From: Candidatus Zixiibacteriota bacterium
GTDB taxonomy: Bacteria; Zixibacteria; MSB-5A5; GN15; PGXB01
Direction: 5' to 3'
Assembly: GCA_026397505.1 (NCBI GenBank)
Contig: JAPLUR010000110.1
Location: forward strand, 1 to 35,391
DNA length: 35,391 nt
The notes under the pieces are model-generated. The model made no database searches and was not told the DNA's origin. It saw only the letters and a program-made list of their open reading frames with translations. Shown piece by piece: positions 7,878-30,919 of the stretch. The first letter of the stretch is position 1; each line of letters starts with the position of its first letter. The position numbers were made by a program, and so were the translations under genes.

Positions 7878-10800
7878 TTAAATGAAAAGGTCACCGTTTT
7901 TTACAAATCTGCTCTTGGATAAAAGAACATCCGCGTCCTGGCCTGATTCTGCAAGCAATTTCTCGACTAGTTTGTTAATCTTAGACATGTTGGCAGCAAG
8001 GATTTTTCGGACTTCAGCCCGCACTCGCCCTAGGCTGCCTTGCAAGTTGGGGATAAATGGTTTTATTTCATCGTGACTCTTTGCGCCAAGTTCGGATAAT
8101 TGCGTATGAACCTTATTCGAAGGATCAAAACGCGATATATTGCATACCTCGAAAGGGCGACGATGAATATCACGCTCGCCGTACAAACCTTGGGGTTGAT
8201 ATTCCTTTATGGCGAGGTTCACGATATCTGAATTCAACACGGCCACAAGATAGAATCCTTCTTCGATTGACTTTGGATAATAATAATAGGTTTTAGCGTC
8301 AGCAATGAATCCATGAGACTTGAATTGTTGGTTGGGATGCGCATCATTAATATAAAGGGCCGCCGATATATTGGTCCCAGAAGTATTGTAGAGAACAACA
8401 TAGGGCGCGTCGATATCTTGCTTTGAAAGCTTTTGATTATAGTTTAGCCATTCGGCCATTGATCTATCGTCAGATTTCCTATATTTATTCCAAAGGTCTT
8501 CCACTTTGCCCATCCAATTGGCCGCAGATTGATAGCCATTCTCCATTAATGCTGCAGCATCAGCAACAAAAAAGGAATGCTTCTGTCTTATTAAAGGGAG
8601 GAATAAGGGTTCCACGCGGCTTACTGCAAATGGCATAATCCCTTTGGCCAGGACGGTTTGAAAGATGAAGCGCTTTTCGACCTTTCCTGATATCTTCATC
8701 TTCCACTGTTCTTTGGATTCCTTCATAGCTTCTTCGCCGGTTTCCAGATACAGATGCTCTTTGTGCATCGCGGCGTCCTTATCTTTTTGTACAAACCAGA
8801 AGCATCGCGGCACGATGGTCGCGCCCTGCAAAAATAGCGGATAATAATAAGAGACTGCTGTGCCGGCAATCAGCAGAGTTTGCTCTGTCTTTCTTCTCGT
8901 GATAATTTTCTTAGCCGAATCCCAACGCATATTTTTCAATGGCAGGACGCCATTATATAAAGTTGTTGGGATATTATTGATCACGACCGAATTTGGGTCT
9001 TTGATAATCAGCACGGATCTAACGTTAAATAAAGGCGTAACGCCTGTAAAATCGTGCACCTCAGAAAAACCCTTTTCCTGAAAATTGCGATGCTGCTTGG
9101 CCGGTAATATCACTGTTTTCGGGAGGACAAAAGCGATTTTTCCATTTTTCTTCAGGAATTCTCTTTCGGAATGAACAAAAAACAAGGTGCTTGTATCCAT
9201 CTGAGTAAACAGCTTACCGTCTTCCGGGTTAAGGAGTTTGTATTCTAATGTAAGCTGCTTAACTCTCTTCTTATAGTTTATGTCCTTAATGTATCTGTAA
9301 GCCAGCCATGGAGGATTGCCCACAACGTAATCAACCTTCCTGAGTCGGATAAATGCCGGGCGATAAGCATTCTTAAGAATAAATGCCCATATGGTGTCCC
9401 TATTATCGCTAATTAAATTCATCAGTAAATTGAAGTTCTTTCTCCAAAGCCATTCATCCGATTCAGAAATATTATCCCTATAGCGCTTCAGGAATCCTTT
9501 GAGCGCCGCATCTCTGTCTTTGTCGTCCGTTGCCGCTTTTCTACAGGATAAGCACAAATCATCTATCATGGCATCTGCATTCAGCTTTTTCCCAATAATG
9601 GAAACAGGTATGGCAAAGCCATCGCCGTTTGCAACCTCTATTGCAACTGCCCTAGTCTTCTTATTCTCGCTCGTCATCAAAGAATCAGACATATAGACAG
9701 GCAGGTAGACATCAGCCCCAAGCTTCCTAATTTCCTTTGCGAGGCCAAGCAGCAAATTTGCCTTCGTCATTATTACGGCCAGCGGATGCACATCTATTCC
9801 AAGAACGGATTCCAGAGTCTTATTCACTAATTTGCCGCCCGTAAGACCCATCTTGCGTAGCCTTCTTATCACAGCCAGCAAGAAAGTACCTGAACCGCAG
9901 GCAGGGTCAAGTATTGTGCCTTTCCTGTATTTCAATGCGGACAAGGCAATGTCTGCAATCCAGTCTGGTGTATAATATTCGCCCAGCGAGTGCCTGCTTT
10001 CAGGATCCACAAGTTCCTGATATATTTCTTTCAATATGTCTTCATCAATATTATCCAGCTTGAACGGAGAAAGGTATTTGTCCACCTTGGCCAAAAGGCC
10101 AACAAAGTGATCCTCGATTTCAGTGTCAAGAGCCCAACTGAAGAAATCGCGCTCGGCCATGTTAAGCAAATTGTGTTTGGCGAAAAAATCACCTGTCAAT
10201 AGACCCTTGTACAAGTTTGCGGATTTCTTGGTATCTGGGAAAAGAGCATTCAAAACGAGCAGGCGGGAAAACATCGTCAAATAAGTATGTTTAAGAAATA
10301 GCCTTAAATCGCCAACTGGCTCGCCATAAACTTTCGAGAGAAGACTGTTCCATTCGGTGAACTTCACTTTGACGCTGGGATTGAGACTGACATGTTGATA
10401 TAGTTCCTCTAATATGCCCCGCGCCTTATTGAAAACAGCACTGTTTGGTCCGAATCTTGTTGTTATGTCAATCGATTTCGGCGTCGTCTTCCTTGAGGCA
10501 AAAAGGAGATCGTCAAAAACTCTAAATGAAGCAATAACATCTGATTCGCTAAGCACGAACCGGGAAATAGCTGTAACATTCTCATGTTCGTATTGATAGA
10601 GAATGAAATTCAACCCGTCTGTCACGACAGCCAAGTACTCTCCGGGTGCTACTTGCGATTCAAAATACTTCTGCAGTTCCAATTCCGCCGCTTTTAGTTC
10701 GCCTTCCAAATTTGTCTTAAACTCGAAAATCAGATACTTATATAAGGCATCGATATAGCCTCTAACGGCGGCAACCTTAATTTTTTCCTCAATTTCGATT

Positions 10801-10985
10801 TCTGTGGGGTCAACGTCGTATGCCTTTCGCAGAAAGTCTATGAATAATGCGCGCCTGTGGTCGTGATGTTTGTTGGCACGTATAGCCTCATTCGCCTGGG
10901 TAATATAGGCGGTAAGTAATGATGGATATTCCTTCTTATAAGGATAAACTTGCTGACCCAATTGAAGATGACCCGGCTTTTTCAT
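7878..10985 (-). CDS. Type IIG-like restriction-modification enzyme (Eco57I-type)
   Basis: This 1035-residue single-chain enzyme probably both cuts DNA and methylates adenine N6. Near the N-terminus, D79 and E88-F-K90 (in GYIDALYKYLIFEFK) fit a PD-(D/E)xK nuclease. A helical linker follows, then SAM-dependent methylase motifs: motif X (LGEYYTPDWIADIAL, near 335), motif I (DPACGSGTFLLAV, D360) and motif IV (NPPW, near 557). The remaining 450 residues should hold the target-recognition domain. There is no separate specificity or nuclease gene beside it. By eye it is AT-richer than its neighbours and sits between unrelated housekeeping genes, which suggests horizontal acquisition. The start has only a weak AGAGAA site. 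The recognition sequence cannot be predicted from this reading. Confidence 0.85.
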   Translation of the reverse strand: MKKPGHLQLGQQVYPYKKEYPSLLTAYITQANEAIRANKHHDHRRALFIDFLRKAYDVDPTEIEIEEKIKVAAVRGYIDALYKYLIFEFKTNLEGELKAAELELQKYFESQVAPGEYLAVVTDGLNFILYQYEHENVTAISRFVLSESDVIASFRVFDDLLFASRKTTPKSIDITTRFGPNSAVFNKARGILEELYQHVSLNPSVKVKFTEWNSLLSKVYGEPVGDLRLFLKHTYLTMFSRLLVLNALFPDTKKSANLYKGLLTGDFFAKHNLLNMAERDFFSWALDTEIEDHFVGLLAKVDKYLSPFKLDNIDEDILKEIYQELVDPESRHSLGEYYTPDWIADIALSALKYRKGTILDPACGSGTFLLAVIRRLRKMGLTGGKLVNKTLESVLGIDVHPLAVIMTKANLLLGLAKEIRKLGADVYLPVYMSDSLMTSENKKTRAVAIEVANGDGFAIPVSIIGKKLNADAMIDDLCLSCRKAATDDKDRDAALKGFLKRYRDNISESDEWLWRKNFNLLMNLISDNRDTIWAFILKNAYRPAFIRLRKVDYVVGNPPWLAYRYIKDINYKKRVKQLTLEYKLLNPEDGKLFTQMDTSTLFFVHSEREFLKKNGKIAFVLPKTVILPAKQHRNFQEKGFSEVHDFTGVTPLFNVRSVLIIKDPNSVVINNIPTTLYNGVLPLKNMRWDSAKKIITRRKTEQTLLIAGTAVSYYYPLFLQGATIVPRCFWFVQKDKDAAMHKEHLYLETGEEAMKESKEQWKMKISGKVEKRFIFQTVLAKGIMPFAVSRVEPLFLPLIRQKHSFFVADAAALMENGYQSAANWMGKVEDLWNKYRKSDDRSMAEWLNYNQKLSKQDIDAPYVVLYNTSGTNISAALYINDAHPNQQFKSHGFIADAKTYYYYPKSIEEGFYLVAVLNSDIVNLAIKEYQPQGLYGERDIHRRPFEVCNISRFDPSNKVHTQLSELGAKSHDEIKPFIPNLQGSLGRVRAEVRKILAANMSKINKLVEKLLAESGQDADVLLSKSRFVKNGDLFI

Positions 10986-11182: not shown

Positions 11183-12964
11183 ATGAAAAGATTACTTTCC
11201 GGAAATGAGGCGGTGGCGCGGGGCGCATTCGAGGCCGGGGTTAAACTCGGCGTCGGTTACCCCGGCACACCCTCCACCGAAATCCTCGAAACCATAGCCG
11301 AGGAATACCGCTCCATCTACTCCCAGTGGTCGCCCAACGAAAAAGTGGCTTTCGAGGTCGGTATCGGCGCCTCATTGGGGGGCGGCCGCGCTCTGGTGAC
11401 CATGAAACATGTCGGCCTTAATGTCGCCGCCGACCCGTTTATGACTTTCGCTTACACCGGAGTCAACGCCGGCTTTGTGGTGGTCTCGGCCGATGACCCC
11501 GAAATGCACTCCTCTCAAAACGAGCAGGATAACCGTTTCTTCGCCAAATTCGCCCAGATACCGTTTCTGGAACCCTCCGACAGCCAGGAATCGAAAGATT
11601 TTGTCCGCCGGGCGTTCGAAATCTCGGAGATGTTCGACACGCCGGTGATGCTTCGGATGACCACCCGCATTTCACACTCCAAGGCGATTGTCGAGGAATA
11701 CGAGCCGGTAGTGCTCCCCGAATCAGGTTTCAAGCGGGATATGCAGAAATATGTGATGATCCCCGCCAACGCCAAGAAACGCCACGTGGTGGTCGAGCAG
11801 CGCCTCGAGAAACTCCACCTCTTTTCCGAATCAACCGAACTCAATAAAGTCGAAAACAACGGCTCCGAAATCGGCATCATCACCGGCGGTATTGCCTACC
11901 AGTACGCCAAGGATAACCTCCCCGATGCCGATTATCTCAAAATCGGCTTTGGTTTCCCACTGCCAATCGAAAAAATAAGTAAATTTGTTGCGGCCCATAA
12001 GGTCAATTTGATTATCGAGGAACTGGAACCGTACTACGAAGAGATTATCAAGGCCGCCGGGATAAAGATAGAAGGGAAGAAGTACTTCTCGCGGCAGGGC
12101 GAACTTTCACCCTATAAGGTTGCTCTGGGTCTTAAAGAGGCCGGCCTTCTCAAATCGGTCGCTGGCGCCGAAATCGAACCGGAGACTCTTTTCCCGCGTC
12201 CGCCAATTCTCTGCCCCGGCTGCCCCCATCGTGGCGCCTATATGGCGCTGCGCAAACTCGGCGTGGCCGTCACCGGAGATATCGGCTGCTATACCCTCGG
12301 CGTGCTTCCCCCGCTGGAATATCTCGACTCCTGTATTTGCATGGGTGCCTCTATCGGCAATGCCATCGGCATTGATAAAGTCGATGGCTACAAAAAAGGG
12401 GTGGTGGCGGTTATCGGCGATTCCACTTTCCTTCACTCCGGAATCACCGGCTTGCTTGATGCCGTCTATAACAAGAGCGACATCACCGTTGTCATTCTGG
12501 ATAATCGCATCACCGCCATGACCGGCGGCCAGCAGCATCCCTCCACCGGACATACCCTGATGGGTGAGGAAACCAAATCGGTCAATCTGGCCCAGTTGGC
12601 CCGGGCGCTCGGGGTGGATTCGGTGCGTGAAATTGATCCCTATGATTATAATGGCATGATACGGGCGCTCGAAGATGAAATCAGACGCCCCGGCCCTTCG
12701 GTCATTATCACCAACCGCCCCTGTGTTCTCATGCCCAAGCGGATTCTTGATCGGCCGTACATGGTGATACCCGAGGACTGCAACGGCTGCAGCGCCTGTT
12801 TCCGGATCGGCTGCCCGGCCATTTCACCCTCAACCGAGATGACCAAACATGGTCGCCCCAAAGCGATCATTGATGCCGTTCTCTGCACCGGCTGTACACT
12901 CTGCGCGCAGGTTTGCAGGCCGGAAGCGATAGTCCCGATACCCGATAAAACCCCGGACAAGTGA
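11183..12964 (+). CDS. iorA: Indolepyruvate ferredoxin oxidoreductase, alpha subunit
   Basis: This is the large subunit of the enzyme that oxidatively decarboxylates aryl (indole-, phenyl-) pyruvates with CoA, giving aryl-acetyl-CoA, CO2 and reduced ferredoxin. At 593 residues it is the normal length. The N-terminal pyrimidine-binding half opens with GYPGTPSTEI, and the thiamine-diphosphate half has GDIGCYTLG (near 368) and GDSTFLHSG with DNRITAMTGGQQ (near 412-450). Two C-terminal 4Fe-4S motifs use C533/C536/C539/C544 and C568/C571/C574/C578. No clear ribosome-binding site precedes ATG 11183. It heads a five-gene operon, overlaps nothing, and is followed within 7 bases by iorB. The actual 2-oxoacid range could include branched-chain acids. 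Confidence 0.95.
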   Translation: MKRLLSGNEAVARGAFEAGVKLGVGYPGTPSTEILETIAEEYRSIYSQWSPNEKVAFEVGIGASLGGGRALVTMKHVGLNVAADPFMTFAYTGVNAGFVVVSADDPEMHSSQNEQDNRFFAKFAQIPFLEPSDSQESKDFVRRAFEISEMFDTPVMLRMTTRISHSKAIVEEYEPVVLPESGFKRDMQKYVMIPANAKKRHVVVEQRLEKLHLFSESTELNKVENNGSEIGIITGGIAYQYAKDNLPDADYLKIGFGFPLPIEKISKFVAAHKVNLIIEELEPYYEEIIKAAGIKIEGKKYFSRQGELSPYKVALGLKEAGLLKSVAGAEIEPETLFPRPPILCPGCPHRGAYMALRKLGVAVTGDIGCYTLGVLPPLEYLDSCICMGASIGNAIGIDKVDGYKKGVVAVIGDSTFLHSGITGLLDAVYNKSDITVVILDNRITAMTGGQQHPSTGHTLMGEETKSVNLAQLARALGVDSVREIDPYDYNGMIRALEDEIRRPGPSVIITNRPCVLMPKRILDRPYMVIPEDCNGCSACFRIGCPAISPSTEMTKHGRPKAIIDAVLCTGCTLCAQVCRPEAIVPIPDKTPDK

Positions 12965-12971
12965 GGTGGTC

Positions 12972-13577
12972 ATGGAAAACATTACAACCAACATTCTTAT
13001 CGTCGGTGTCGGCGGTCAGGGAGTCCTTCTGGCATCGGAGCTTCTCTCCGAGACGGCCATGAATGGCGGTTATGATGTGAAAAAATCCGAGGTGCATGGT
13101 ATGTCGCAGCGCGGGGGAGTAGTGAGTTCGCATATCAAATTCGGCCCGAAAGTCTACTCGCCGATTATCCCGTACGGTCAGGCCGATATCCTGATTTCCT
13201 TTGAGGTGGCCGAGGCGCTGCGGGCTATCGACTGGATGAAAAAAGAGGGGTTTCTGGTTACGGCTATTACCCGTCTGGTGCCGCCCATTGCCACCGGCGG
13301 AAAATTCCATTACCCTGATGATCCGGTTGCGGAGCTCCGGAAAAAAGTCCACCGCCTGCTGGTGCTTGAAGCCGAAGATATCGCCAGAGACCTGGGCGAT
13401 GTCCGGCTGGTCAATACCATCCTTCTTGGCAGCCTTTCCACCGACCTGGAATTCGCCGAATCGCTCTGGCAGGAGGTTATTCGTCAGAGGGTCAAAGAGA
13501 AATTTATCGAAATGAACCTTCAGGCCTTTGCCCGCGGACGGCAGTTGGCCGGTTCGGTCAATAAAGGAACGGCCTGA
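12972..13577 (+). CDS. iorB: Indolepyruvate ferredoxin oxidoreductase, beta subunit
   Basis: This gamma-type subunit of the 2-oxoacid:ferredoxin oxidoreductase family partners the alpha chain just upstream. It has 201 residues from ATG 12972. I preferred this start over GTG 12966 because GAGG (12963-12966) lies five bases before it. The family signatures VGVGGQGVLLASELL (near 13) and KKSEVHGMSQRGGVVSSHI (near 37) are intact. The gene starts 7 bases after the iorA stop, so the subunits are translationally linked. The product is cytoplasmic and needs the alpha subunit for cofactors. Confidence 0.94.
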   Translation: MENITTNILIVGVGGQGVLLASELLSETAMNGGYDVKKSEVHGMSQRGGVVSSHIKFGPKVYSPIIPYGQADILISFEVAEALRAIDWMKKEGFLVTAITRLVPPIATGGKFHYPDDPVAELRKKVHRLLVLEAEDIARDLGDVRLVNTILLGSLSTDLEFAESLWQEVIRQRVKEKFIEMNLQAFARGRQLAGSVNKGTA

Positions 13578-13587
13578 GGAAAAAGCA

Positions 13588-14655
13588 ATGGAAGAAATAA
13601 TCATTGTTATCAACCCCGGTTCTACTTCCACCAAAATGGCCCTCTTCCGCGCGAAGGAGAAATCAGCCGAGACCAATGTTACCCATTCCTCGGAGCAACT
13701 GGCTGCTTTCGACAATGTCGCCGACCAGTTCGAGCTGCGGATGAAAAATATTGATGAGTGGCTGGCGTCACAGAATATTGATCAAAAAAGAGTCGTTGCG
13801 GTGGCCGGACGCGGCGCCCCGCTTCGTCCCCTCGAGGGCGGCGCTTACCGGATAAATGAGAAAATGCTCGATGACCTTCATCATATGAAATACTCCAACC
13901 ATGCCTCCAATCTGGGTGCCATTATCGCCGACCATCTCGGCCGACGATATAAAGTGCCGGCGGTCATTGTCGATCCGGTAACGGTCGATAATTTCACCGA
14001 CATGGCGCGGGTCTCGGGGATTCCCGAGATTGAGCGCAAATGCCGTTCGCATGCCCTCAATATCAAAGAAATCTGTCGGCGTCACGCGGCGAAGATTGAC
14101 CGCAGTCTCGAGCAGTGCAATTTCGTGGCGGTGCATATGGGGGGCGGCATATCGGTAGCGGCGGTGGAAAAAGGGAAAATTGTCGATGTCAACGATGCTC
14201 TTCTGGGCATGGGGCCGTATTCGCCCGACCGCGCCGGTGCCCTGCCGATCGGCGCTCTGGTCAAACTGGCCTTCTCCGGTAAGTACACCGAGAAAGAGTT
14301 GATCGATAAGCTTTCGCGCAAAGCGGGACTGCTTGCCTATATCGGGCAGTCCGATCTGCGCGAAGTCGAGAAAATGATCGATTCCGGCGACAAAAAGGCC
14401 GAGCTCTATTTCCGGGCCATGGCCTACCAGATTGCCAAGGAGATCGGCGCCTGCACTGTCGTGCTGAAGGGTAAACTTGATGCTATCATCCTTACCGGCG
14501 GAATGGCCAATTCAAAAAGATTGGTGGATATTCTGAAAGAATATATTTCTTTCCTGGGTGAGGTAATTGTCGTGCCGGGCGAGTTCGAGATGGAGGCTCT
14601 GGCGGCCGGCGCCCTGCGCGTGATCGAGAAAAAAGAGGTTCCCAAAGATTATTGA
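13588..14655 (+). CDS. buk: Butyrate kinase (acetokinase family)
   Basis: The enzyme transfers the phosphate of an acyl-phosphate to ADP, yielding ATP and a free carboxylic acid. Within this operon the acid is more likely an aryl-acetate or a branched short-chain acid than butyrate itself; that is inference. The protein has 355 residues, the usual length. ATG 13588 is chosen because AGGA lies 7 bases upstream and the protein then begins MEEIIIVINPGSTSTK, the standard N-terminus. Other signatures are VDPVTVDNF (near 131), HMGGGISVAAVEKGK and DALLGMGPYSPDRAG (near 182-220), and TGGMANSKR (near 303). It follows iorB by 10 bases and is followed by ptb after 10 bases. Confidence 0.93.
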   Translation: MEEIIIVINPGSTSTKMALFRAKEKSAETNVTHSSEQLAAFDNVADQFELRMKNIDEWLASQNIDQKRVVAVAGRGAPLRPLEGGAYRINEKMLDDLHHMKYSNHASNLGAIIADHLGRRYKVPAVIVDPVTVDNFTDMARVSGIPEIERKCRSHALNIKEICRRHAAKIDRSLEQCNFVAVHMGGGISVAAVEKGKIVDVNDALLGMGPYSPDRAGALPIGALVKLAFSGKYTEKELIDKLSRKAGLLAYIGQSDLREVEKMIDSGDKKAELYFRAMAYQIAKEIGACTVVLKGKLDAIILTGGMANSKRLVDILKEYISFLGEVIVVPGEFEMEALAAGALRVIEKKEVPKDY

Positions 14656-14665
14656 CAGGTAAATT

Positions 14666-15565
14666 ATGGCCTATCCTTATGACTTCATAAGTTCTTCGGA
14701 TGAGATCATATCCTCGGGGGCAAAACTCTCGGCCGGAGGCAAAAGAAAAATGGTGGCCGTGGCCGCGGCACAGGATGTTGATGTTCTCGGCGCGCTGTCA
14801 TCGGCAGAGGCCGAGGGGATTCTCGATGCCACCCTGTTCGGTGATAAGACGCTGATTGAAAAAATGGCCGCGGACGGCAATATCGATATTTCCCGAATGA
14901 CAATAGTTGCCGAACAAGATGTCAATAAGGCCGCATATGCCGCCGTAAGAATGGCCGCCGAGGGAAAGGCCGATGTTATCATGAAAGGATTTGTCTCAAC
15001 CTCGACCCTTCTGAAAACGGTCCTCTCCAAAGATTTCAACCTCCGCACTAAGAACACCCTTTCACATGTCGCGGTGCTCGATATTCCCGGTTACGGCAAG
15101 CTCCTTTCCATGAGCGATGGCGGCATGGTGGTCAAACCGGATTTGGAGCAGAAGCTGCAGATTATGGAAAATGCCATCCTCATATCCCGGGCGCTGAAAC
15201 TGAACCATATCCGTGTGGCGGTCTCGGGAGTAAACGATAATGATACTAAAGCTTTTCTTGGCCGCGCCAGAGAGCTTCATATGCCCGATCTCGAACTGAA
15301 AGGCCCTCTTACTTTCGACCGAGCCGCCGGCCGAGGCGGCGATACCGATATTCTCATTTCCGCCTCTATCGAAGAATGCAATATTATAGCCAAGGCTCTG
15401 ATCAATTTTGCCGGGGCGGTATTTGCCGGGGTCATTGTCGGCGCGAAAGTCCCGGTGAGCCTGGTCTCACGCACTGATACCATCAAGAATAAAAAAGCCT
15501 CGGTCTCCCTTGCCTGCCTTATCGCCGACTACTATCAGAAATCGGGGTACGGAGTTGTCCAATGA
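14666..15565 (+). CDS. ptb: Phosphate butyryltransferase-like protein 1
   Basis: This protein converts acyl-CoA and phosphate to acyl-phosphate, feeding butyrate kinase. It has 299 residues. The N-terminal half has the family features: VAVAAAQDVDVLGAL (31-45), KADVIMKGFVSTSTLLKTVL (101-120) and TLSHVAVLDIPGY (131-143). The C-terminal SR-x-D motif (S268, R269, D271), which by analogy with phosphotransacetylase contributes the catalytic Ser-Arg, is present. However, the middle of the C-terminal half is shortened: the family's VE.I.P.M and KM.DRGQI segment is missing (about 186-212), and so is the histidine-containing loop after GPLTFDRA. The downstream paralogue has those segments. It overlaps that gene by 4 bases. 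It could be active alone or need its partner. Confidence 0.85.
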   Translation: MAYPYDFISSSDEIISSGAKLSAGGKRKMVAVAAAQDVDVLGALSSAEAEGILDATLFGDKTLIEKMAADGNIDISRMTIVAEQDVNKAAYAAVRMAAEGKADVIMKGFVSTSTLLKTVLSKDFNLRTKNTLSHVAVLDIPGYGKLLSMSDGGMVVKPDLEQKLQIMENAILISRALKLNHIRVAVSGVNDNDTKAFLGRARELHMPDLELKGPLTFDRAAGRGGDTDILISASIEECNIIAKALINFAGAVFAGVIVGAKVPVSLVSRTDTIKNKKASVSLACLIADYYQKSGYGVVQ

Positions 15566-16473
15566 ACGCCTGCAAATCATTTACCGATATTCAGACCGCC
15601 GCCCGTGAAAAAGCGGGATCCGGTAATCCTCTCCAGCTTGGCATTATTTCTCCCATCCAGCAGAAGGTTTTGGAAGCCGCAGTCAGGGCCGGGAAAGGGG
15701 GACTTGTCTTTCCGCAATTCCTCGGCAAGAAGAGAGATATTGAAGATATCGCGCGAGTGGCAAAACTCAACCCCGACGATTTCGGCATTATTGAAAGCAC
15801 GGATCCGATTGCCGATGCCCTTGCTCTTGCCAACTCAGGCAAGCTGGATATTCTACTCGTCTGTAACAACGCCATCTCGGATTTTGTATCAGCGGCAAAC
15901 AAGGATTCCTCCGGTTTTATTTTTAGAGGGACTCAGGCTACTCATGTTACTCTTCTGATCGTTCCCGGATACCATAAAATGCTTTTTGTCGCCGACGGCC
16001 TTATGGTGCAGCCACTCGAAATTACCCAATCCATCTCAATAGTGCAAAATACGGTGACCGTCGCCCGGAAACTGGGTGTGGCTCTGCCGAAAGTGGCGCT
16101 TCTGGCGGCGGTGGAGGCAGTTTCGCCCGCCATGCCGGTCACTATGGCGGAAGCTGTCATTGCCAAGATGGCCGACCGGGGACAGATAAAGAATTGTGTT
16201 ATCGATGGCCCGCTCTCTTTTGACTGCGCTATCAGCGCCGAGGTGGCGCAGCATAAGGGGATAAAAAATTCCCCCGTGGCCGGCGACCCGGACATTTTTA
16301 TCGGACCCACTTTGGAGACGGCTGATGGGATATTCAAGGCCCTATCGCTCTATGCCAAAGCTGAGTCGGCCGGGGTGATTTTTGGCGGGAAGGTTCCCGT
16401 GGCCACCGAATACGAAATCCAATCGGTTCAGGATATTGTCAATTCCATCGCCCTGGCCGTGTTATTGAAATAA
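15562..16473 (+). CDS. Phosphate butyryltransferase-like protein 2
   Basis: This is a second phosphotransacylase paralogue of 303 residues, starting in an ATGA overlap with ptb and therefore translationally coupled. Its C-terminal half keeps the family segments AAVEAVSPAMP (182-192), KMADRGQIKNCVIDGPLSF (202-220) and AQHKGI (229-234). Its N-terminal half has lost the MKG.V.T motif (here LDILLVCNNAISDF, 95-108). The C-terminal Ser-Arg is replaced (EYE at 283-285), so it may lack catalysis by itself. The pattern is the mirror image of the upstream protein. The likely role is as the second subunit of a heteromeric phosphotransacylase; a noncatalytic or regulatory paralogue is the alternative. 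Confidence 0.8.
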   Translation: MNACKSFTDIQTAAREKAGSGNPLQLGIISPIQQKVLEAAVRAGKGGLVFPQFLGKKRDIEDIARVAKLNPDDFGIIESTDPIADALALANSGKLDILLVCNNAISDFVSAANKDSSGFIFRGTQATHVTLLIVPGYHKMLFVADGLMVQPLEITQSISIVQNTVTVARKLGVALPKVALLAAVEAVSPAMPVTMAEAVIAKMADRGQIKNCVIDGPLSFDCAISAEVAQHKGIKNSPVAGDPDIFIGPTLETADGIFKALSLYAKAESAGVIFGGKVPVATEYEIQSVQDIVNSIALAVLLK

Positions 16474-17018: not shown

Positions 17019-17429
17019 ATGGCAGGCAGACGGATCAATTTCGGATTTGTGGCAATAATCGCAGTTATAATTGCCCTTGCCATATATGCCTTCTTTGCGA
17101 AAAGAGAATCACCAAATATCGCTCCTGTTCAACTGAAAAGCATGATTGATTCCAAATCGCAGTTCAGGCTAATTGATGTCCGCCAGCCCTCCGAATTTAC
17201 CGGTGGGCATATCGCCGGGGCTGAGCTGCTGCCCCTTAGCGATATTCAACAGGGGAAGTATAATCTTGATAAAAGCGACACTATTATTCTCTATTGTCGC
17301 AGCGGTCGCCGCAGCGGCATTGCGGCCAAAATTCTGAAAGACTCCGGCTATGAATATGTCAGAAACCTTGAGGGGGGAATACTTAAGTGGGAATATGGCC
17401 TGGTTTCGGACTCCTCCAGCGCTGAATAA
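17019..17429 (+). CDS. Membrane-anchored rhodanese-like domain protein
   Basis: The protein has 136 residues from ATG 17019; a TTG at 17013 is also possible. An N-terminal membrane helix (about 9-26, VAIIAVIIALAIYAFF) puts the domain outside the cytoplasmic membrane. The rhodanese domain follows with LIDVRQPSEFTGGHIAGA (51-68) and the active-site loop C93-RSGRRS, which contains the persulfide-forming cysteine. Single-domain rhodaneses move sulfane sulfur or handle oxidised sulfur species; the substrate here is unknown. It lies 34 bases after tspO on the same strand. Confidence 0.9.
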   Translation: MAGRRINFGFVAIIAVIIALAIYAFFAKRESPNIAPVQLKSMIDSKSQFRLIDVRQPSEFTGGHIAGAELLPLSDIQQGKYNLDKSDTIILYCRSGRRSGIAAKILKDSGYEYVRNLEGGILKWEYGLVSDSSSAE

Positions 17430-17598
17430 TTGTGACAAGAATATGCATCAGATTGCAGCAAATTGCTATCAGGTTACTCATATTTCGCGATCAAAAATCC
17501 CTTTCCTGTCCGTTATATACTTGTCTTTCAACGCATTAATATTGCGGCACAAGAATTGCTTTCTAATTGGCACTATTAATATATTAACGTGTGGAGTT

Positions 17599-18198
17599 AT
17601 GCGTAAAACCATTCTAAAACTGTTGCTTTGCTTCGTCGTGGTGGCCGTGCCGGCAAAAATCTGGGCCACCCCTATGATGGTTGAGCATATCTACAACGAT
17701 TGGTTGTTTCAGGAGGATAGCCACCGTTACATGTACTCTTCCTATGTCGATTTCTTCGACAATACCCCCAGCGGCATAACCGCCGGGTATAGGTTCGGGA
17801 CCGATCCCACGCTGCAGCACGAGTTAACTTGGGGACATTCGCTCCCCTCGGATCTTCGTGTTCCGCCGGGCCGGGTCTTAAGAGCCAAGTTGTGGATCGA
17901 TGCTGCGAAAGTAGATGCGAGCAATAACTATGTCAGGATTCAGGAGACATTGGACTGGAACCCGCTTAACCGGTGGGGTGATGACAATAGCACCTACGAT
18001 CTGACAAATGTTACTGTAGCCGATTTCTGGAATAATAGTCCGCTCACAGCTAACATTCGTGCCGGAGAAATGAGACTGTGGATTTATCATGCGGCTTTGA
18101 TGGTTGATTACCGTCCGACCGCCGTTCCGGAACCGGCCACGATGGCCCTCTTCGGTTTGGGATTGACCGGCCTCGGTCTTCTCCGCCGTAGGAAATAA
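17599..18198 (+). CDS. PEP-CTERM sorting domain protein
   Basis: This exported protein has 199 residues. ATG 17599 is chosen because the signal peptide starts there (MRKTILKLLLCFVVVAV) and GGAG lies just upstream, though with short spacing. The body has no recognised domain; it is rich in W, Y and N and probably a beta-sandwich. The last 25 residues are a classic PEP-CTERM signal: the motif VPEPAT, a hydrophobic helix (MALFGLGLTGLGLL) and a basic end RRRK. In other bacteria such signals are cut by an exosortase and the proteins go with exopolysaccharide. No exosortase lies in this window. A strong terminator follows at 18218. Confidence 0.85.
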   Translation: MRKTILKLLLCFVVVAVPAKIWATPMMVEHIYNDWLFQEDSHRYMYSSYVDFFDNTPSGITAGYRFGTDPTLQHELTWGHSLPSDLRVPPGRVLRAKLWIDAAKVDASNNYVRIQETLDWNPLNRWGDDNSTYDLTNVTVADFWNNSPLTANIRAGEMRLWIYHAALMVDYRPTAVPEPATMALFGLGLTGLGLLRRRK

Positions 18199-19866: not shown

Positions 19867-22506
19867 TTACAGGCACCCGATCTTTGGCGACGGGCCACCC
19901 TTGTATAGGAAATTTATCAAGTATGTAATATCCTGAATGTTTACGATACAATTACCATTGATGTCACCTACAAATTTCGGCACAGGGCCGGGCGGAATTT
20001 TATTATAGAGATAATTGATTAAGAAAGTGACATCCTGGATATTGACCAGCCAATCGCCGTTGGCATCACCCAGTTTCCAGGTGCGGAAATTGAGGGTATT
20101 GGACGAATAGGTATATCGCCCGGTTTTATCGGTCGCCTTCACTTTCCACCAATATCTGGTTGCGAATAAAAGGCTATCGGCCAACTGATAAGAATTGGAT
20201 TGAATGTTTTCAATAGTGCGGAGATAGAGGAAATTGCTGTCCAGAGCAATATACAAGGTATAATGAACCGAATCGAGCGGATCCGGGTCGGATGATGCCA
20301 GCCAGTGGAATTGTGGGAGCATTTGGAACACGGTTCCGGTTGTTTCGGGCAGAGGATTGATATTGAATAAGCCGGGCGGTTCTTCGACCGCATTCACCCA
20401 GAAGGATTTGATGGATGACCAGGGCGAATTTTCATATTGGTCATACGCGCGAGAACGCCACCAATATTTCCAATTCTCATTAAGGGACTGGAAAACCTGC
20501 CAGCCGGTCGAATCTATCCCTTCCGGAAAGCCCGATACACCATACTCATTCAACTGGCCAAATGCAGAATCATTGACTACCGCGAATTCGTAATTGATAG
20601 TGTCATTTTCGGCATCGGTCGAGTTGTGAACATAGAGAGTTGGGGTAGCGGTGTTGACAATAGCCCCGCTATCCGGCCAGGCCAATACCGGCACCGTCGG
20701 CACCGAGTTCATGCGAAACGTGGTGTCATACCAGAGCGACCAGAACGAGCCATTGTGCACACGCAGGCGCATATAATAGGTAGCCCCGTCAACAAGCGGC
20801 GCACCGGTATAAGTGACAAAGGTATCGGCGGAGGCTACCGGCGCCGGGTTCCACATTTCGGAAAAGGCCCAATCGGAATCAGTGCCAACAGCAATGAGAA
20901 AGCTGTCTTGTAATAGACTTCCAAGATCACGATAATCCCAGTATATTGTAGGGGTATTAGATAATACATGGAGTATATGATTGCCCTGAATGCCGTACCC
21001 AGCCAAATAAGGCCCGCAGGCGACATCATAGGCACCTATCAATTGGCCACAACTATTGTTGCTTGGTGCGCAAGGGGAACTGGTATTTATATGAAAATTT
21101 TTATTAGCAGTATCACAAAATAAAGGATCGAGTGAAATATTGCCATTTTGACCAAATTGTGCGGCTATGCAATCCACCCAGTTTCCGCTATCATTACCAT
21201 ATATATTTGAACAAGATAGGTAGGGGCCGCTAAGGCTCTCAAAGCAAAATATGCCAACACCAGATTTAGTGTTTGCCACTATCGAATTACTTATGACAGG
21301 CGCAGAAGAGCAGAAAATTGAACCCCCGGGCCCCCACCATCCCCACGCAACTCTATTGTCATAAAATAGACAATGATCAATAACACAATTGCCATTGCCC
21401 AAACTCATGGCAGCGCCGCTGTACTCGTAAGTTGAATAATTATACTCAAAGGTGCAATATTCTATTATGGACGATTGAGATCCACAACTTACAGCTCCTC
21501 CGTTCCTCGCGTAATTTGAGACAAAATTATTTCTGCTCATGGCGAACCAATTGCACAGCCCCATACTTATAGCACCAGCATCGCCGTCCCATGCGCAATT
21601 GGACATAAAATTGCAATCTGTAATAATACTCGTATCACACTGTGCGCTAAAGATGGCTCCGCCCGCCATATCGGAATTATTTCGATCAAATCGTGAATAG
21701 CTAATCACTAGCGTGCCATATCGCTGGCAAATTGCGCCGCCGAACCCAGCTTCCTCATATGACTCCGAATAACATCCATTGTCAGTAAATTCGCAGCTAT
21801 CAATATTCAAATATGATGAGATGCTAAAAATACCACCACCGGAACCATTATCAGCAAAATTCTCCCTAAAGTGACATTTGCTGAAAAACAATTGTGAATT
21901 GAGGCAATAAATGCCACCGCCAAATGTAAGTCCTACTAATGGCCTAAGATTTTTGGTATTGCGCAGTGCCCTTTTCGTTGCCGAATCGCCTGTTCGGTTG
22001 TTTTGGAAAGTGCAATTGACAAATATTACAGTTGCGTTTTCTATGCGCATTCCTCCACCGTAATGACCCATCCATTGATCACGTACAACACAATTATCGA
22101 TTGTTGCCGATGAATTATGCAGAATAAATGCGCCGCCATCAGTCCAGCCCATTGTATGCGGATTTGCAGTTATAGAAAATCCGGAAATATGTAGCGTTGT
22201 GTCTTCTCCGCTATTTATAATAAATCCGGTATAAGTATCTTCGCCGTGATCGACAAAAATGATAGTAGAATCCGGACCAGCACTGGAAATAATTATCAGC
22301 AATTTGCCTTGAGTGCTTATATTATGATTTCCATCACCAGTGTATGTCCCCGGTGCCACCAGCACTGTATCCCCGTTCCCCGCAACGTTTATCCCCGCCT
22401 GTATAGTCGGCTGGTCGGCGGGAACGTGAATAGTGGCCGCAAATGCATTGCTCGTGCTCAGAAACAAGAAGCCGAGCAGAATCCAAATAAATGATATCTT
22501 GCCCAT
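19867..22506 (-). CDS. Secreted parallel beta-helix protein with C-terminal dockerin
   Basis: The protein has 879 residues. A signal peptide (ISFIWILLGFLFLSTSNAFA, about 4-23) is followed by TIHVPADQPTIQAGINVAGN (near 25-44), the usual opening of right-handed beta-helix proteins. Irregular repeats with GG-A/G-IF and N-C-F patterns run to about 500. Two or three fibronectin/Ig-like domains (about 500-800, e.g. YYMRLRVHNGSFWSLWYDTT) come next. The end (about 812-875) is a type I dockerin with duplicated loops DANGDWLVNIQD and DINGNCIVNIQD, each followed by a helix TYLINFLY. No cohesin or polysaccharide-lyase motif is evident, so the dockerin may serve non-cellulosomal surface assembly. ATG 22506 has GAGGGA upstream. 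Confidence 0.87.
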   Translation of the reverse strand: MGKISFIWILLGFLFLSTSNAFAATIHVPADQPTIQAGINVAGNGDTVLVAPGTYTGDGNHNISTQGKLLIIISSAGPDSTIIFVDHGEDTYTGFIINSGEDTTLHISGFSITANPHTMGWTDGGAFILHNSSATIDNCVVRDQWMGHYGGGMRIENATVIFVNCTFQNNRTGDSATKRALRNTKNLRPLVGLTFGGGIYCLNSQLFFSKCHFRENFADNGSGGGIFSISSYLNIDSCEFTDNGCYSESYEEAGFGGAICQRYGTLVISYSRFDRNNSDMAGGAIFSAQCDTSIITDCNFMSNCAWDGDAGAISMGLCNWFAMSRNNFVSNYARNGGAVSCGSQSSIIEYCTFEYNYSTYEYSGAAMSLGNGNCVIDHCLFYDNRVAWGWWGPGGSIFCSSAPVISNSIVANTKSGVGIFCFESLSGPYLSCSNIYGNDSGNWVDCIAAQFGQNGNISLDPLFCDTANKNFHINTSSPCAPSNNSCGQLIGAYDVACGPYLAGYGIQGNHILHVLSNTPTIYWDYRDLGSLLQDSFLIAVGTDSDWAFSEMWNPAPVASADTFVTYTGAPLVDGATYYMRLRVHNGSFWSLWYDTTFRMNSVPTVPVLAWPDSGAIVNTATPTLYVHNSTDAENDTINYEFAVVNDSAFGQLNEYGVSGFPEGIDSTGWQVFQSLNENWKYWWRSRAYDQYENSPWSSIKSFWVNAVEEPPGLFNINPLPETTGTVFQMLPQFHWLASSDPDPLDSVHYTLYIALDSNFLYLRTIENIQSNSYQLADSLLFATRYWWKVKATDKTGRYTYSSNTLNFRTWKLGDANGDWLVNIQDVTFLINYLYNKIPPGPVPKFVGDINGNCIVNIQDITYLINFLYKGGPSPKIGCL

Positions 22507-26223: not shown

Positions 26224-28218
26224 ATGAGAAAAGCGGGAATAGTCGGACTGGTGCTCCTCTTAATTGTTATCGCTGTAGCTCTTTTCTATTACGACATACT
26301 TAACCTTCGCGGCAGCAAGGATGATATCATTGCCGCCATAATCGAATACGAGGATACCCGCCGCGCTCCCGACCGCCTGATAAGTTTTCTGAGCGATCCC
26401 GATCCGGAAATCCGCGCCCGGGCGGCGCTGGCGGTGGGAAGAATCGGCGATCTTGGCGCCGCCGATCATCTTTACCATCTTCTGGCTGATTCCTCGGTTG
26501 AAGTTGCCCGGACCGCCGCATTTGCGATCGGCCTGACCGGCGAGAAAAAGTTTGCCTCACAACTGCTGGAACTGGCGGTCGGTTTCGAGCCGGAACGGCT
26601 GGCTGCCACAATCGAGGCGGTCGGGCGGCTCACCGATTCGGGCATGACCGATATTATCGATGAACTTGCCAAATATCTTGATAACCCGGATCATCTGGTC
26701 CGCGAACAGGCGGCCTACGCTCTCTGGCGCGCTGGTGGAAAAGGAGCCGCCGCACGTCTGGCCGCTGTTGGTCGGAGCGACCCGGTGCGCTCTGTGAAAG
26801 TTGCCTGTCTCTATGCCCTGAATCGTTTGGGGATTCCCGAGCCGGTCGATTTATACTCCGAATATCTCCCCGATAGCGACCCCTTTGTCCGCTCGCTGGC
26901 GATTCGCGGACTGGCTCTGGGCAAAGATGATACCAAAACCTTCCTGGTGGCGGTCGGCCTCAATGACAGAGACAACAACGTTGTCTCGCAAGCAATCTCC
27001 TCATTGACCGCTATCGGAACACCGCGGGCAATCGGCTATCTGGCCGCACGATACGAGAGCGAGACCGATGAAAAACTGAAAGTACAACTGCTCGAATCTT
27101 TCGCCCGGCTCAAAAGCGATACGATTGCCGAACAGGTGAATGCCGAAATCGATTCCTGCGAGAACAGCAATATCATCGGAGCCGGAATTATCTATCTGGC
27201 CAAAGTCCGGGGAACCGAGTCAATTGCGCTCATTGATACGCTTCTCGCACTGAATGATGACCGTATCAATGTCAGCATTGCCCAGGCGCTTTCGGAAATC
27301 GGCGGCGAATTTGTCAAGCCGCGCCTTGCGGCTCTTTTCAAGGATATTAATCCCGGCGTGCGCGCCGCCGCCTTTGAGGCGCTGGCCAAAACCGACCCGG
27401 TCAATATCGATTATTATCTCAACAGCGCCCTCGATGACACCGATTTGGCAGTCATCTCGCAGGCGGTCGATAAAATCGGCCAGTCGAAATCCAAAGATTA
27501 CCTTCCCCGCCTGATGGGAATAATGAAACAACAGGGGACAGGTACCGATTTGAAACGCTCCGTAGTTTCCGCCGCCGGGGAGTTTCTCAATGCAAGCATA
27601 GTCGATTCGCTGGCCGAGGATATTCTATATCACGGCCTTCAGGACAAAGATTATCTGGTCAGCCGTGAGGCGGCCCTGATTTATAAAAACAAACTTGATG
27701 ATGACAAAACTGCCTATATCAATAAACCTTCCGGCTTAATCAGCAAAAGAGAAATCAAATCCTTTATCACCAAATATAAAACCAATCCCAGAGCGATAAT
27801 CAGCACCGGCCGGGGCGATATTGAAATAGAATTGTACCCCGATATTGCTCCGCTCACGGTCTATAATTTCATCAAGCTGGCCCAGGATAAATTTTACGAC
27901 AATCTGACATTCCATCGGGTGGTGCCGGCATTTGTGATACAGGGGGGCGACCCGCGCGGTGACGGTTCCGGCGGGCCGGGATACAATATCCGCTGTGAGT
28001 ACAGCGACAAGCCGTTTGAGCGGGGTGCGGTAGGGATTGCCACCTCCGGTAAGGACAGCGGCGGCTCGCAGTTCTTTATCATGCTTGGGGCGGCGCCGCA
28101 CCTTGATGCCCGTTATACCCTTTTCGGCAAAGTGACCGCCGGGATGGATACCGTCGATAAGATTGTCCGGGGTGATACCATAAAGAATATTCGAATCATT
28201 GAGGAGAAGCAAAAATGA
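26224..28218 (+). CDS. HEAT-repeat protein fused to cyclophilin peptidyl-prolyl isomerase
   Basis: The protein has 664 residues. One N-terminal helix (about 5-24, GIVGLVLLLIVIAVALFYYD) anchors it in the membrane with the rest probably periplasmic. About a dozen HEAT-like helical repeats follow (35-510, e.g. DPDPEIRARAALAVGRIGD and DPDHLVREQAAYALWRAGG-type units). A complete cyclophilin domain (about 520-660) comes last, with FHRVVPAFVIQGGDPRGDG (catalytic R565), GSQFFIMLGAAPHLD and YTLFGKV. It should isomerise prolyl bonds in exported clients, with the HEAT array as a client- or partner-binding arm. AAGGCGGTGG lies upstream of ATG 26224. It overlaps the next gene by 4 bases, so the two products probably work together. 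Confidence 0.9.
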   Translation: MRKAGIVGLVLLLIVIAVALFYYDILNLRGSKDDIIAAIIEYEDTRRAPDRLISFLSDPDPEIRARAALAVGRIGDLGAADHLYHLLADSSVEVARTAAFAIGLTGEKKFASQLLELAVGFEPERLAATIEAVGRLTDSGMTDIIDELAKYLDNPDHLVREQAAYALWRAGGKGAAARLAAVGRSDPVRSVKVACLYALNRLGIPEPVDLYSEYLPDSDPFVRSLAIRGLALGKDDTKTFLVAVGLNDRDNNVVSQAISSLTAIGTPRAIGYLAARYESETDEKLKVQLLESFARLKSDTIAEQVNAEIDSCENSNIIGAGIIYLAKVRGTESIALIDTLLALNDDRINVSIAQALSEIGGEFVKPRLAALFKDINPGVRAAAFEALAKTDPVNIDYYLNSALDDTDLAVISQAVDKIGQSKSKDYLPRLMGIMKQQGTGTDLKRSVVSAAGEFLNASIVDSLAEDILYHGLQDKDYLVSREAALIYKNKLDDDKTAYINKPSGLISKREIKSFITKYKTNPRAIISTGRGDIEIELYPDIAPLTVYNFIKLAQDKFYDNLTFHRVVPAFVIQGGDPRGDGSGGPGYNIRCEYSDKPFERGAVGIATSGKDSGGSQFFIMLGAAPHLDARYTLFGKVTAGMDTVDKIVRGDTIKNIRIIEEKQK

Positions 28219-29228: not shown

Positions 29229-29792
29229 ATGACTGACGAAGAGCGGGAGATATTAGAGCTATTCTGCAAGCGTGTGGATGAAGTCGCAAAGTCCTCCATT
29301 TACAAGGATGGTGGGAGAGAAATATCCCTGAATTTAAAGGGAGATGCAAAGGGCAATGTCGCATTATCTATGTCTGTGCCTGATAAAGAAGTGTTACTGA
29401 GCTTGGTTACTAAATTGCGTCAGTTCTATATGCCTAAGGAGTCTATATATTTCCGAAAAGTATATAACATAGTATGGAAACACTTATCCTCGGCGTCGGA
29501 AGAAGAGAAGGAATGTGCAAAATCGGCGATGGCAACTTTCAAGCAGATAACGGAAGTTGGATGGTTTGAATTCCGTTTCAATAATGTCAAACTTACACCA
29601 AAAGATATAATTGATATCTGGTTTAATGGTAACATATTTCATGCGGATAAAACCCGGGTAAAACAGTTTGAATTACTTGCAGCATCGAATCTTGGCCCAT
29701 TTGTAGAATACCAATTTATATCGACAATATGTGACTTGGCAGGCTTAATGACCTATTTTGGTTCTTTTATCCGAGCAAGGCTTTTGAAATAG
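29229..29792 (+). CDS. Unknown protein next to the RES-domain gene
   Basis: The protein has 187 residues and I do not recognise its family. It begins MTDEEREILELFCKRVDEV, has no signal peptide or clear membrane helix, and looks mixed alpha/beta with a helical C-terminal half (FELLAASNLGPFVEYQF, SFIRARLLK). There is no ribosome-binding site; TATAATTT lies directly before the ATG. Base use is AT-rich compared with the genes on either side and similar to the RES gene 143 bases downstream on the same strand. The shared composition and orientation suggest the two arrived together, so it might be the antitoxin or an accessory. That is inference only. Confidence 0.7.
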   Translation: MTDEEREILELFCKRVDEVAKSSIYKDGGREISLNLKGDAKGNVALSMSVPDKEVLLSLVTKLRQFYMPKESIYFRKVYNIVWKHLSSASEEEKECAKSAMATFKQITEVGWFEFRFNNVKLTPKDIIDIWFNGNIFHADKTRVKQFELLAASNLGPFVEYQFISTICDLAGLMTYFGSFIRARLLK

Positions 29793-29935: not shown

Positions 29936-30919
29936 ATGAAAAAAATTGAACGTCTTATTAAAGAAATCTCTGCCGATATCTGCTATTGCTACAATTGTCA
30001 GCCATATGAAGGCGGTGAACCATTTTGGATATTGGGTGAAAGGACGGATTTGGAGGAACTCTTTGATGATTATGATGTACCGGAAGATAAACGCAATGAA
30101 ATTGCCGATGCAATGAAGTGTCCCTGGTGTGGTACACATTTTCAGAGGGGAATCGAAGTTGGAATTAAAACGAAATCGCGTCGTGAACTAGAGAAGAAAC
30201 TCACCGTCTGGAGGAATCGATACGCAAATGATTTTGAGGATTTTGCAGCTTTCTTGGAGAAATTTCCTTACCTTGGCATTAAGCATACAATTGGCAAGAA
30301 GATTATAACGAATTTGTCGACTTTTCCCAAGAAAGATATAAAGGATGATAAATGGTTTCGTGCCCGCACAATTGTAGGTAGTAAACGTTTGAGTTGCGCG
30401 GACTTTAAGGCTCCCGACCAAGAAGTCGTAAAGATACCAGAGGGTCGTTTTAATCATTATGGGCAAAGCCATTGGTATTTGGCTAGTACCGAATATGGTG
30501 CCGCTTACGAAGCTGCTAGTTACAACGACGATATCCTATGGGTACAATGTGTCAATATCCGCTACGCGGTCGACATTCTCGATTTGCGCGTGTCAGATTA
30601 TGAAACGGATTTAGGTCTACCCGTTCTGGCCACAGGAATTATATTTTCGAGCATAATTCGACGCGATGTAATACACGACCGCAATTGGAAACCAGAGTAC
30701 TTTGTCCCACGATTTATCGCAGATTGTGCAAAACTCCACTCTTTTCAGGGAATCCTCTTTGACAATGATAAATTCCACGGCGCGAACCTTGTATTGTTCC
30801 ACCCGGACAGAGTTGATTATGAGTTTATAGAAAATCCAAGATTCCTAGAAATTCCAAGGGTTGGAACGGATCAAACCAAAAATGAGGAAGCTGATCCCAA
30901 TGCTGATCCGATTTTCTGA
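29936..30919 (+). CDS. RES-domain protein with N-terminal zinc finger
   Basis: The protein has 327 residues. The C-terminal two thirds match the RES family, whose studied members degrade NAD+ as toxins. It has GRFNHYGQSHWYLAS and YGAAYEAA with R171, Y181 and E192 in the spacing expected for the Arg-Tyr-Glu active site, then AKLHSFQGILFDNDKFHGANLV (split near 266-285). The N-terminal part has two CxxC pairs (C18/C21 and C62/C65), a probable zinc ribbon, and a helical stretch (80-125) like the HEPN/RES N-terminal domains of larger family members. No Xre-type antitoxin is adjacent. The start lacks a ribosome-binding site (TAGAATTT before the ATG). A cytoplasmic toxin or defence effector is likely. 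Confidence 0.8.
   Translation: MKKIERLIKEISADICYCYNCQPYEGGEPFWILGERTDLEELFDDYDVPEDKRNEIADAMKCPWCGTHFQRGIEVGIKTKSRRELEKKLTVWRNRYANDFEDFAAFLEKFPYLGIKHTIGKKIITNLSTFPKKDIKDDKWFRARTIVGSKRLSCADFKAPDQEVVKIPEGRFNHYGQSHWYLASTEYGAAYEAASYNDDILWVQCVNIRYAVDILDLRVSDYETDLGLPVLATGIIFSSIIRRDVIHDRNWKPEYFVPRFIADCAKLHSFQGILFDNDKFHGANLVLFHPDRVDYEFIENPRFLEIPRVGTDQTKNEEADPNADPIF

Follow-up and report, generated by a model that had tools for sequence, protein, structure and literature searches.

A tandem pair of Ptb paralogues in Candidatus Zixiibacteriota with complementary halves of one phosphotransacylase active site

The window analyzed here is a 35,391-nt stretch of DNA, positions 1 to 35,391 of contig JAPLUR010000110.1 (forward strand), from the Candidatus Zixiibacteriota bacterium assembly GCA_026397505.1. 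It carries a near-contiguous cluster of five genes on the plus strand, iorA-iorB-buk-ptbA-ptbB, in which two paralogues of phosphate butyryltransferase (Ptb) stand last. Both ptb open reading frames (ORFs) were confirmed where the initial annotation had placed them, with the end of ptbA joined to the start of ptbB by a shared 4-nt ATGA overlap. The genes of the cluster are as follows:

11183..12964, + strand: iorA, indolepyruvate:ferredoxin oxidoreductase (IOR) alpha subunit, an arylacyl-CoA producer (TIGR03336, 707.8 bits against a cut-off of 650.9)
12966..13577, + strand: iorB, IOR beta subunit (NF005322, 260 bits against a cut-off of 237)
13582..14655, + strand: buk, acyl kinase of the butyrate kinase family, acyl phosphate + ADP to acid + ATP (TIGR02707, 462 bits against a cut-off of 289)
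14666..15565, + strand: ptbA, 299 aa, Ptb paralogue that retains the active-site half contributed by its own subunit
15562..16473, + strand: ptbB, 303 aa, Ptb paralogue that retains the active-site half donated across subunits (donor half)

PTA_PTB (PF01515) is the sole Pfam family matched by ptbA and by ptbB, in both cases above the cut-off. Against the NCBIfam Ptb models, each scores approximately 195-198 bits and misses both cut-offs (410.5 for the equivalog TIGR02706 and 399 for the subfamily model NF004472), and the top NCBIfam match of ptbB is the bifunctional PRK08190 model at 211 bits. In a PDB search the closest solved structure for both proteins is 7VG9, the Ptb of C. acetobutylicum (CaPTB). 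The pair shares with known Ptb (CaPTB, TIGR02706) a common fold, the linkage to buk and, if both subunits are pooled, the conserved residues; CaPTB is a homo-octamer with all of these residues in one chain, whereas here they are split over two paralogues. One ordinary complete phosphotransacetylase (Pta) lies on another contig of the same genome (G000:C47, 395.6 bits; G and L labels denote genomes and loci surveyed). A family search of this genome gave no further PTA_PTB member beyond Pta, ptbA and ptbB, thus it is without a complete Ptb.

The residue features of the two proteins are listed below in CaPTB numbering, which is the 7VG9 chain number minus 20, with counterparts in the Pta of M. 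thermophila (MtPta). The labels f1, f2 and so on denote families of relatives in the class.

14981..14989, + strand: ptbA MKG, residues 106-108 (CaPTB 96-98), retained
15230..15298, + strand: ptbA degenerate block, canonical VE.xxPxM ... KMxxRGQI, with Met199, Arg202 and Gln204 lost
15326..15337, + strand: ptbA site of a deleted loop, which holds Lys228 in canonical Ptb; the deletion is private to the window genome among f1
15380..15394, + strand: ptbA Asn239...Lys243 (CaPTB Asn250, Lys254; MtPta Asn279, Lys283), kept in 100% of orthologues
15467..15478, + strand: ptbA Ser268-Arg269-x-Asp271 (CaPTB Ser279-Arg280-x-Asp282), retained
15856..15864, + strand: ptbB Leu-Val-Cys replacing MKG, own-site face lost
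16108..16143, + strand: ptbB AVEAVSPAMPVT block (CaPTB Glu181-Thr190), retained
16165..16188, + strand: ptbB KMADRGQI (CaPTB Lys198-Ile205), retained
16204..16224, + strand: ptbB DGPLSFD (CaPTB Asp211-Asp217), with Ser at the MtPta Gln244 position (alignments, PMC9706017)
16255..16260, + strand: ptbB Lys232-Gly233 (CaPTB Lys228; MtPta Lys257), Lys in 100% of complete orthologues
16411..16416, + strand: ptbB Tyr-Glu replacing the catalytic Ser-Arg

A complete active-site set is absent from either single polypeptide of the window and is present when PtbA and PtbB are pooled. PtbA lacks the donor set, and PtbB lacks MKG, Asn250 (Asp at this position), Ser279, Arg280 and Asp282. The initial annotation had described the losses in much the same way, with PtbA keeping MKG and SR-x-D and lacking the VE.I.P.M/KM.DRGQI block and the loop after GPL.FD (the Lys228 loop), and PtbB holding the blocks lost from PtbA but lacking MKG and Ser-Arg (EYE). 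The description is accurate for the window, but two of its elements are not general: the loop deletion is the window's own, since the other 12 ptbA of f1 keep Lys228 despite missing the RGQ block, and the Ser-Arg loss in PtbB is specific to certain lineages. A Pta-like Asp316 in the window PtbB (SVQDIV) was rejected as a conserved feature, the column being N41 T23 A9 among PtbB.

In a wider sample, 132 genomes of the phylum, which belongs to the FCB group, were searched with PtbA and with a PtbB profile and the loci were then read; most of the genomes are fragmented assemblies, and some ptbA and ptbB are cut by contig ends. In total, 66 ptbA and 65 ptbB were recovered, from families f1, f2, f3, f5, f9 and f10. 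They were compared with 53 canonical Ptbs from the same class and from other phyla, the latter sampled via loci found with PtbB peptides only. Canonical Ptbs are mostly complete for Met96-Lys97-Gly98, Asn250, Lys254, Ser279-Arg280-x-Asp/Glu282, Glu181, Met199, Arg202, Gln204, Asp211 and Lys228, with Arg202 conserved at 100%, Gln204 at 83% and Asp211 at 92%.

Conservation of these residues is asymmetric and complementary between the two paralogues. PtbA keeps the own-site set (MKG, Asn250, Lys254, Ser279-Arg280-x-Asp282) at 94-100%, with Lys97, Asn250, Lys254, Ser279, Arg280 and Asp282 at 98-100%, and has mostly lost the donor set (Arg202 8%, Gln204 6%, Asp211 5%, Lys228 24%). PtbB keeps the donor set (Lys228 100%, Glu181 98%, Met199 98%, Asp211 95%, Gln204 95%, Arg202 81%), whereas its own-site residues are depleted: Met96 is found in 0%, Lys97 in 42%, Asn250 in 56% and Arg280 in 45%, against 94% for Met96, 100% for Asn250 and 98% for Arg280 in PtbA. 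All 8 own-site positions are intact in 58/63 ptbA and in 49/53 canonical Ptbs, and ptbB retain only 1-7 of the 8; all 5 donor positions are intact in 48/62 ptbB, and the maximum in any ptbA is 2/5. A locus where both proteins hold a full active-site set, a case that the initial annotation had named as contrary to its proposal, was not found in this sample. The partition is seen in approximately 60 genomes and therefore is not due to chance.

The two sides of the partition differ in their distribution. In all families PtbA has lost most of Met199-Arg202-Gln204-Asp211, whereas the own-site residues missing from PtbB depend on the lineage. Loss of Ser-Arg is complete only in f1 and f5, and 22 ptbB elsewhere keep the pair (those of f9 and f10, most in f3 and roughly half in f2); f5, f9 and f10 have Tyr in place of Asn250. 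The Ser-Arg loss in PtbB is apparently a later, lineage-specific decay.

The geometry of known dimers gives these two sets a structural meaning. In MtPta, one subunit contacts CoA through Ser128, Asn279, Tyr282, Lys283, Gln286, Thr298 and Cys312, and the opposite subunit does so through Gln244 and Lys257 (PMC9706017). MtPta (PDB 1QZT/2AF4) has the same fold and, with a site completed by the partner's Gln244 and Lys257, is a precedent for a composite site (PMC9706017), although it is a homodimer. By alignment, MtPta Lys257 corresponds to CaPTB Lys228, Gln244 to position 215, Asn279 to Asn250 and Lys283 to Lys254. The CaPTB dimer is held by its C-terminal domains and has a salt bridge between Asp217 and Lys254 (PMC9706017). 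In the PTA domain of MaeB, the single acetyl contact from the opposing monomer is Gln683 (PMC7902834), which maps to the CaPTB 215/MtPta Gln244 position when a constant 439 is subtracted from the residue number (arithmetic); this position is Ser in every complete PtbB. Since the set kept in PtbA matches the own-subunit contacts of MtPta and the set kept in PtbB the opposite-subunit contacts, PtbA would be the cleft and PtbB the arm reaching into its partner's cleft. The Arg202-Gly-Gln204 block is provisionally assigned to the donor set, as it shares a domain with that set and follows it in loss and retention.

The two genes are also bound together in their genomic arrangement. They stand in the order A-then-B on one strand in 63/63 readable loci. 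At 52 of these 63 junctions the genes overlap or are within 10 nt of each other, including 18 where the overlap measures 4 nt. None of the 66 ptbA is without an adjacent ptbB except at contig ends; the strict co-occurrence in related genomes that the initial annotation had proposed as a check is thus observed, and no case of either gene routinely standing alone with buk was found in approximately 66 genomes. Linkage to buk is looser. The buk gene lies immediately 5' of ptbA in the window and most relatives but not in f5, where ptbA-ptbB is apart from buk and buk is on another contig, and in G025 and G026 (loci L108 and L031) ptbA-ptbB is present and no buk was found in the genome. On account of these arrangements, ptbA and ptbB are tied more tightly to each other than to buk. 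Among the matches listed for the PtbB profile, down to approximately 150 bits, the pair-carrying genomes have no third match as strong as the complete Ptbs. Families f6, f12, f13, f14 and f17 have one or two complete Ptbs in place of the pair. Two complete Ptbs approximately 1-3 kb apart were seen at L077-L082 (f12-f14). In one surveyed genome (G012, L114:9140-10113) iorA is seemingly split into two frames, by sequencing error or decay.

PtbA and PtbB each form one clade, with matching family groupings in the tree. Because f5 groups with f9 and f10 in both clades, the pair was most likely inherited together. Among 28 disjoint pairs of near genomes, the median ratio of N-domain to C-domain divergence is 1.09 for A and 2.21 for B, compared with 1.65 for canonical pairs, and the B ratio exceeds the A ratio in 24/28 (P = 0.0002, sign test). 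Relative to complete Ptbs, PtbA is thus shifted toward a conserved N-domain and PtbB toward a conserved C-domain. The mean identity of the N-terminal domain is 0.30 in PtbB versus 0.57 in PtbA, and the C-terminal domain of PtbB has an identity of 0.72 in near pairs. The simplest history would be loss of the donor role in PtbA first and decay of PtbB after it. Once PtbA had lost most of the donor set, the reciprocal site would be dead, leaving the own site of PtbB useless and free to decay by lineage.

The physical compatibility of the two subunits was assessed with AlphaFold2. Because ptbA and ptbB of the window are in different frames, the pair of a relative (L094, G020) was modeled. It is one of 13 loci with ptbA and ptbB in one frame and a single stop between; the paired alignment consisted of these 13 same-frame rows, with the stop read as Gly. 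A mixed alignment, in which separate A and B rows stood next to the A-B read-through rows, was discarded, B having apparently been pulled onto the A half (as judged from a collapsed consensus and low identities). The A-stop-B read-through gave a predicted local distance difference test (pLDDT) of 82.9 and a predicted template modeling score (pTM) of 0.80. A control of equal depth, the buk-stop-ptbA read-through (13 rows), gave a pLDDT of 78.6 and a pTM of 0.49, the level expected for two folded halves with their relative placement undefined. The best PDB match of the fused A-B model is 7VG9, with a template modeling score of 0.93 normalized by target. The prediction supports a definite A:B arrangement.

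Taken together, we consider it likely that ptbA and ptbB encode the subunits of an obligate heteromer, a phosphate acyltransferase of the Ptb family in which each A:B dimer would hold a single composite site and act on acyl-CoA made by IOR. In Ptb and Pta dimers, each active site occupies one subunit's cleft (with the MKG face, Asn250, Lys254 and Ser279-Arg280-x-Asp282), and the second domain of the partner completes it; with the own-subunit residues coming from PtbA and those of the partner from PtbB, each A:B dimer would have one complete site. An obligate heteromer, as proposed in the initial annotation, is thus the best reading of the sequences and the model, but its division into a catalytic and a structural or specificity subunit is replaced: by dimer geometry, PtbB would be the donor of domain II.

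As for the substrate, the position of iorAB 5' of the pair points to arylpyruvate or related 2-oxoacids as its source. Most likely, PtbA-PtbB converts the acyl-CoA supplied by IorAB, which is probably arylacetyl-CoA, to an acyl phosphate that Buk would use for ATP formation. In other bacteria, ATP formation from acyl-CoA has been shown or proposed for Ptb and Buk homologues beside such oxidoreductases (PMC13285125, PMC13290082). HpdJ and HpdK of C. scatologenes, a p-hydroxyphenylacetyl-CoA phosphotransferase and a kinase, are Ptb and Buk homologues likewise clustered with an arylpyruvate ferredoxin oxidoreductase (PMC13285125), but there a single Ptb homologue, HpdJ, is active alone, and the oxidoreductase is HpdDEFG, not IorAB (PMC13285125).

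Several observations weigh against an obligate heteromer. Some PtbB of f2 (L020, L111) lack only Met96 of the own-site set and might work alone. A homomer of A is conceivable in f1, because PtbA of this family keeps Lys228 except in the window. Since AlphaFold2 knows the Ptb homodimer, the pTM of 0.80 would speak for the ability of A and B to fit together as a dimer, not for a preference of the heteromer over A:A or B:B. Finally, PtbA without exception lacks Tyr253, the counterpart of the own-subunit Tyr282 of MtPta, and PtbB retains it, which speaks against a simple partition. In PtbA the position is mostly Ala or Ser, and its counterpart in MaeB, Tyr721, lines the acyl pocket (PMC7902834); the acyl pocket of PtbA is therefore presumably enlarged, and the loss may reflect a bulkier substrate.

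Alternatively, PtbA could be the catalyst by itself, a homomer whose donor set has changed, with PtbB in a regulatory or stabilizing role comparable to that of the MaeB PTA domain or the IDH3 gamma subunit. All classical own-site residues are indeed kept in PtbA, and catalytically dead PTA domains are used as sensors (PMC7902834). The MaeB domain has the PTA fold, degenerate catalytic residues and a CoA cleft completed by Gln683 of the opposing monomer (PMC7902834), but it is fused to malic enzyme and acts as an acetyl-CoA sensor without transferase activity; ptbA and ptbB are stand-alone genes of approximately 300 aa beside buk, with the own-site catalytic residues kept in ptbA. The NAD-dependent isocitrate dehydrogenase IDH3 alpha-gamma (yeast IDH1/IDH2) shares its structural superfamily with Pta. 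The IDH alpha-gamma dimer uses a pseudo-site as an allosteric site (PMC5241874). IDH3 catalyzes another reaction, and its second site is a conserved allosteric site, whereas that of PtbB looks unconserved. An allosteric pocket would need conservation, yet the own-site residues of PtbB vary between families, and the Arg202, Gln204 and Asp211 so common in canonical Ptbs are lost from PtbA and kept, together with Lys228, in PtbB. Catalysis by PtbA alone is thus unlikely. It is also quite unlikely that, in the manner of IDH3, a composite catalytic site on PtbA is combined with a PtbB cleft serving as a lineage-specific allosteric sensor of a CoA ester or aromatic acid, tuning the ATP-yielding step of amino-acid fermentation.

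We regard it as improbable that the two genes share an operon but encode independent homomeric enzymes, each with an acyl-CoA specificity of its own. Largely complete tandem Ptbs do exist in Cloacimonadota, Spirochaetes and a Bacteroidales genome, spaced ones occur in other families of the class, and some f2 PtbB are almost complete; but neither gene stands alone in the genomes surveyed, PtbB of f1 is without Ser-Arg and many other own-site residues, and ptbA and ptbB are still coupled where they are separated from buk. A reading of ptbB as a degenerating pseudogene, or of PtbB as a protein recruited to some unrelated role and carried in the operon, would fit the fast-evolving N-terminal domain of PtbB but is highly improbable, as the frame is open throughout, the C-terminal domain is conserved, the donor residues are mostly kept at 95-100% over several families, and ptbB is present wherever the ptbA locus is complete.

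The characterized phosphotransacylases cited here are homomers. In titles and abstracts on heteromeric Ptb, on Zixibacteria with butyrate kinase and on composite-site phosphotransacetylase, with subscription journals mostly outside the search, we found no heteromeric phosphotransacylase and no description of a pair like PtbA-PtbB. If true, the heteromer of PtbA and PtbB would be a clean, group-wide natural example of mutual subunit dependence, reached by complementary loss along the line set by dimer geometry, for which the complete Ptbs of related families offer comparison material. For annotation, neither ptbA nor ptbB should by itself carry the label of a working phosphate butyryltransferase; expression of either gene singly may well fail. 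The pair may also occur outside Candidatus Zixiibacteriota.

Tandem Ptbs of other phyla show asymmetries of their own. In Spirochaetes (L035:4845-6802, L038:603-2550, L041:3889-5882), the MKG motif of copy 1 is interrupted by an insertion (MNGEESYY), its Lys254 is replaced by Gln and its Ser-Arg by Ser-Lys, and copy 2 has the usual residues; these tandems may represent a similar division that arose independently and is at an earlier stage. In tandems of Cloacimonadota and one Bacteroidales genome (L039, L044, L045, L050, L052, L048), copy 2 has Phe (DGPLDIF or similar) and copy 1 Asp at Asp217, the residue of the dimer salt bridge, which hints at an asymmetric dimer.

Elsewhere in the window, a large protein of the Eco57I/N6-adenine methylase type (1035 aa) is encoded on the minus strand at 7878-10985. 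A PEP-CTERM-like tail (VPEPATMALFGLGLTGLGLLRRRK) was read by eye at the end of the protein at 17350-18198, and a dockerin-like C-terminus, also by eye, in the large secreted protein at 19867-22506. The ORF at 26224-28218 joins HEAT repeats to a C-terminal cyclophilin-type peptidyl-prolyl isomerase domain. Finally, a RES-domain protein at 29936-30919 follows an ORF of 187 aa at 29229-29792, and the two may form a RES/Xre toxin-antitoxin pair.
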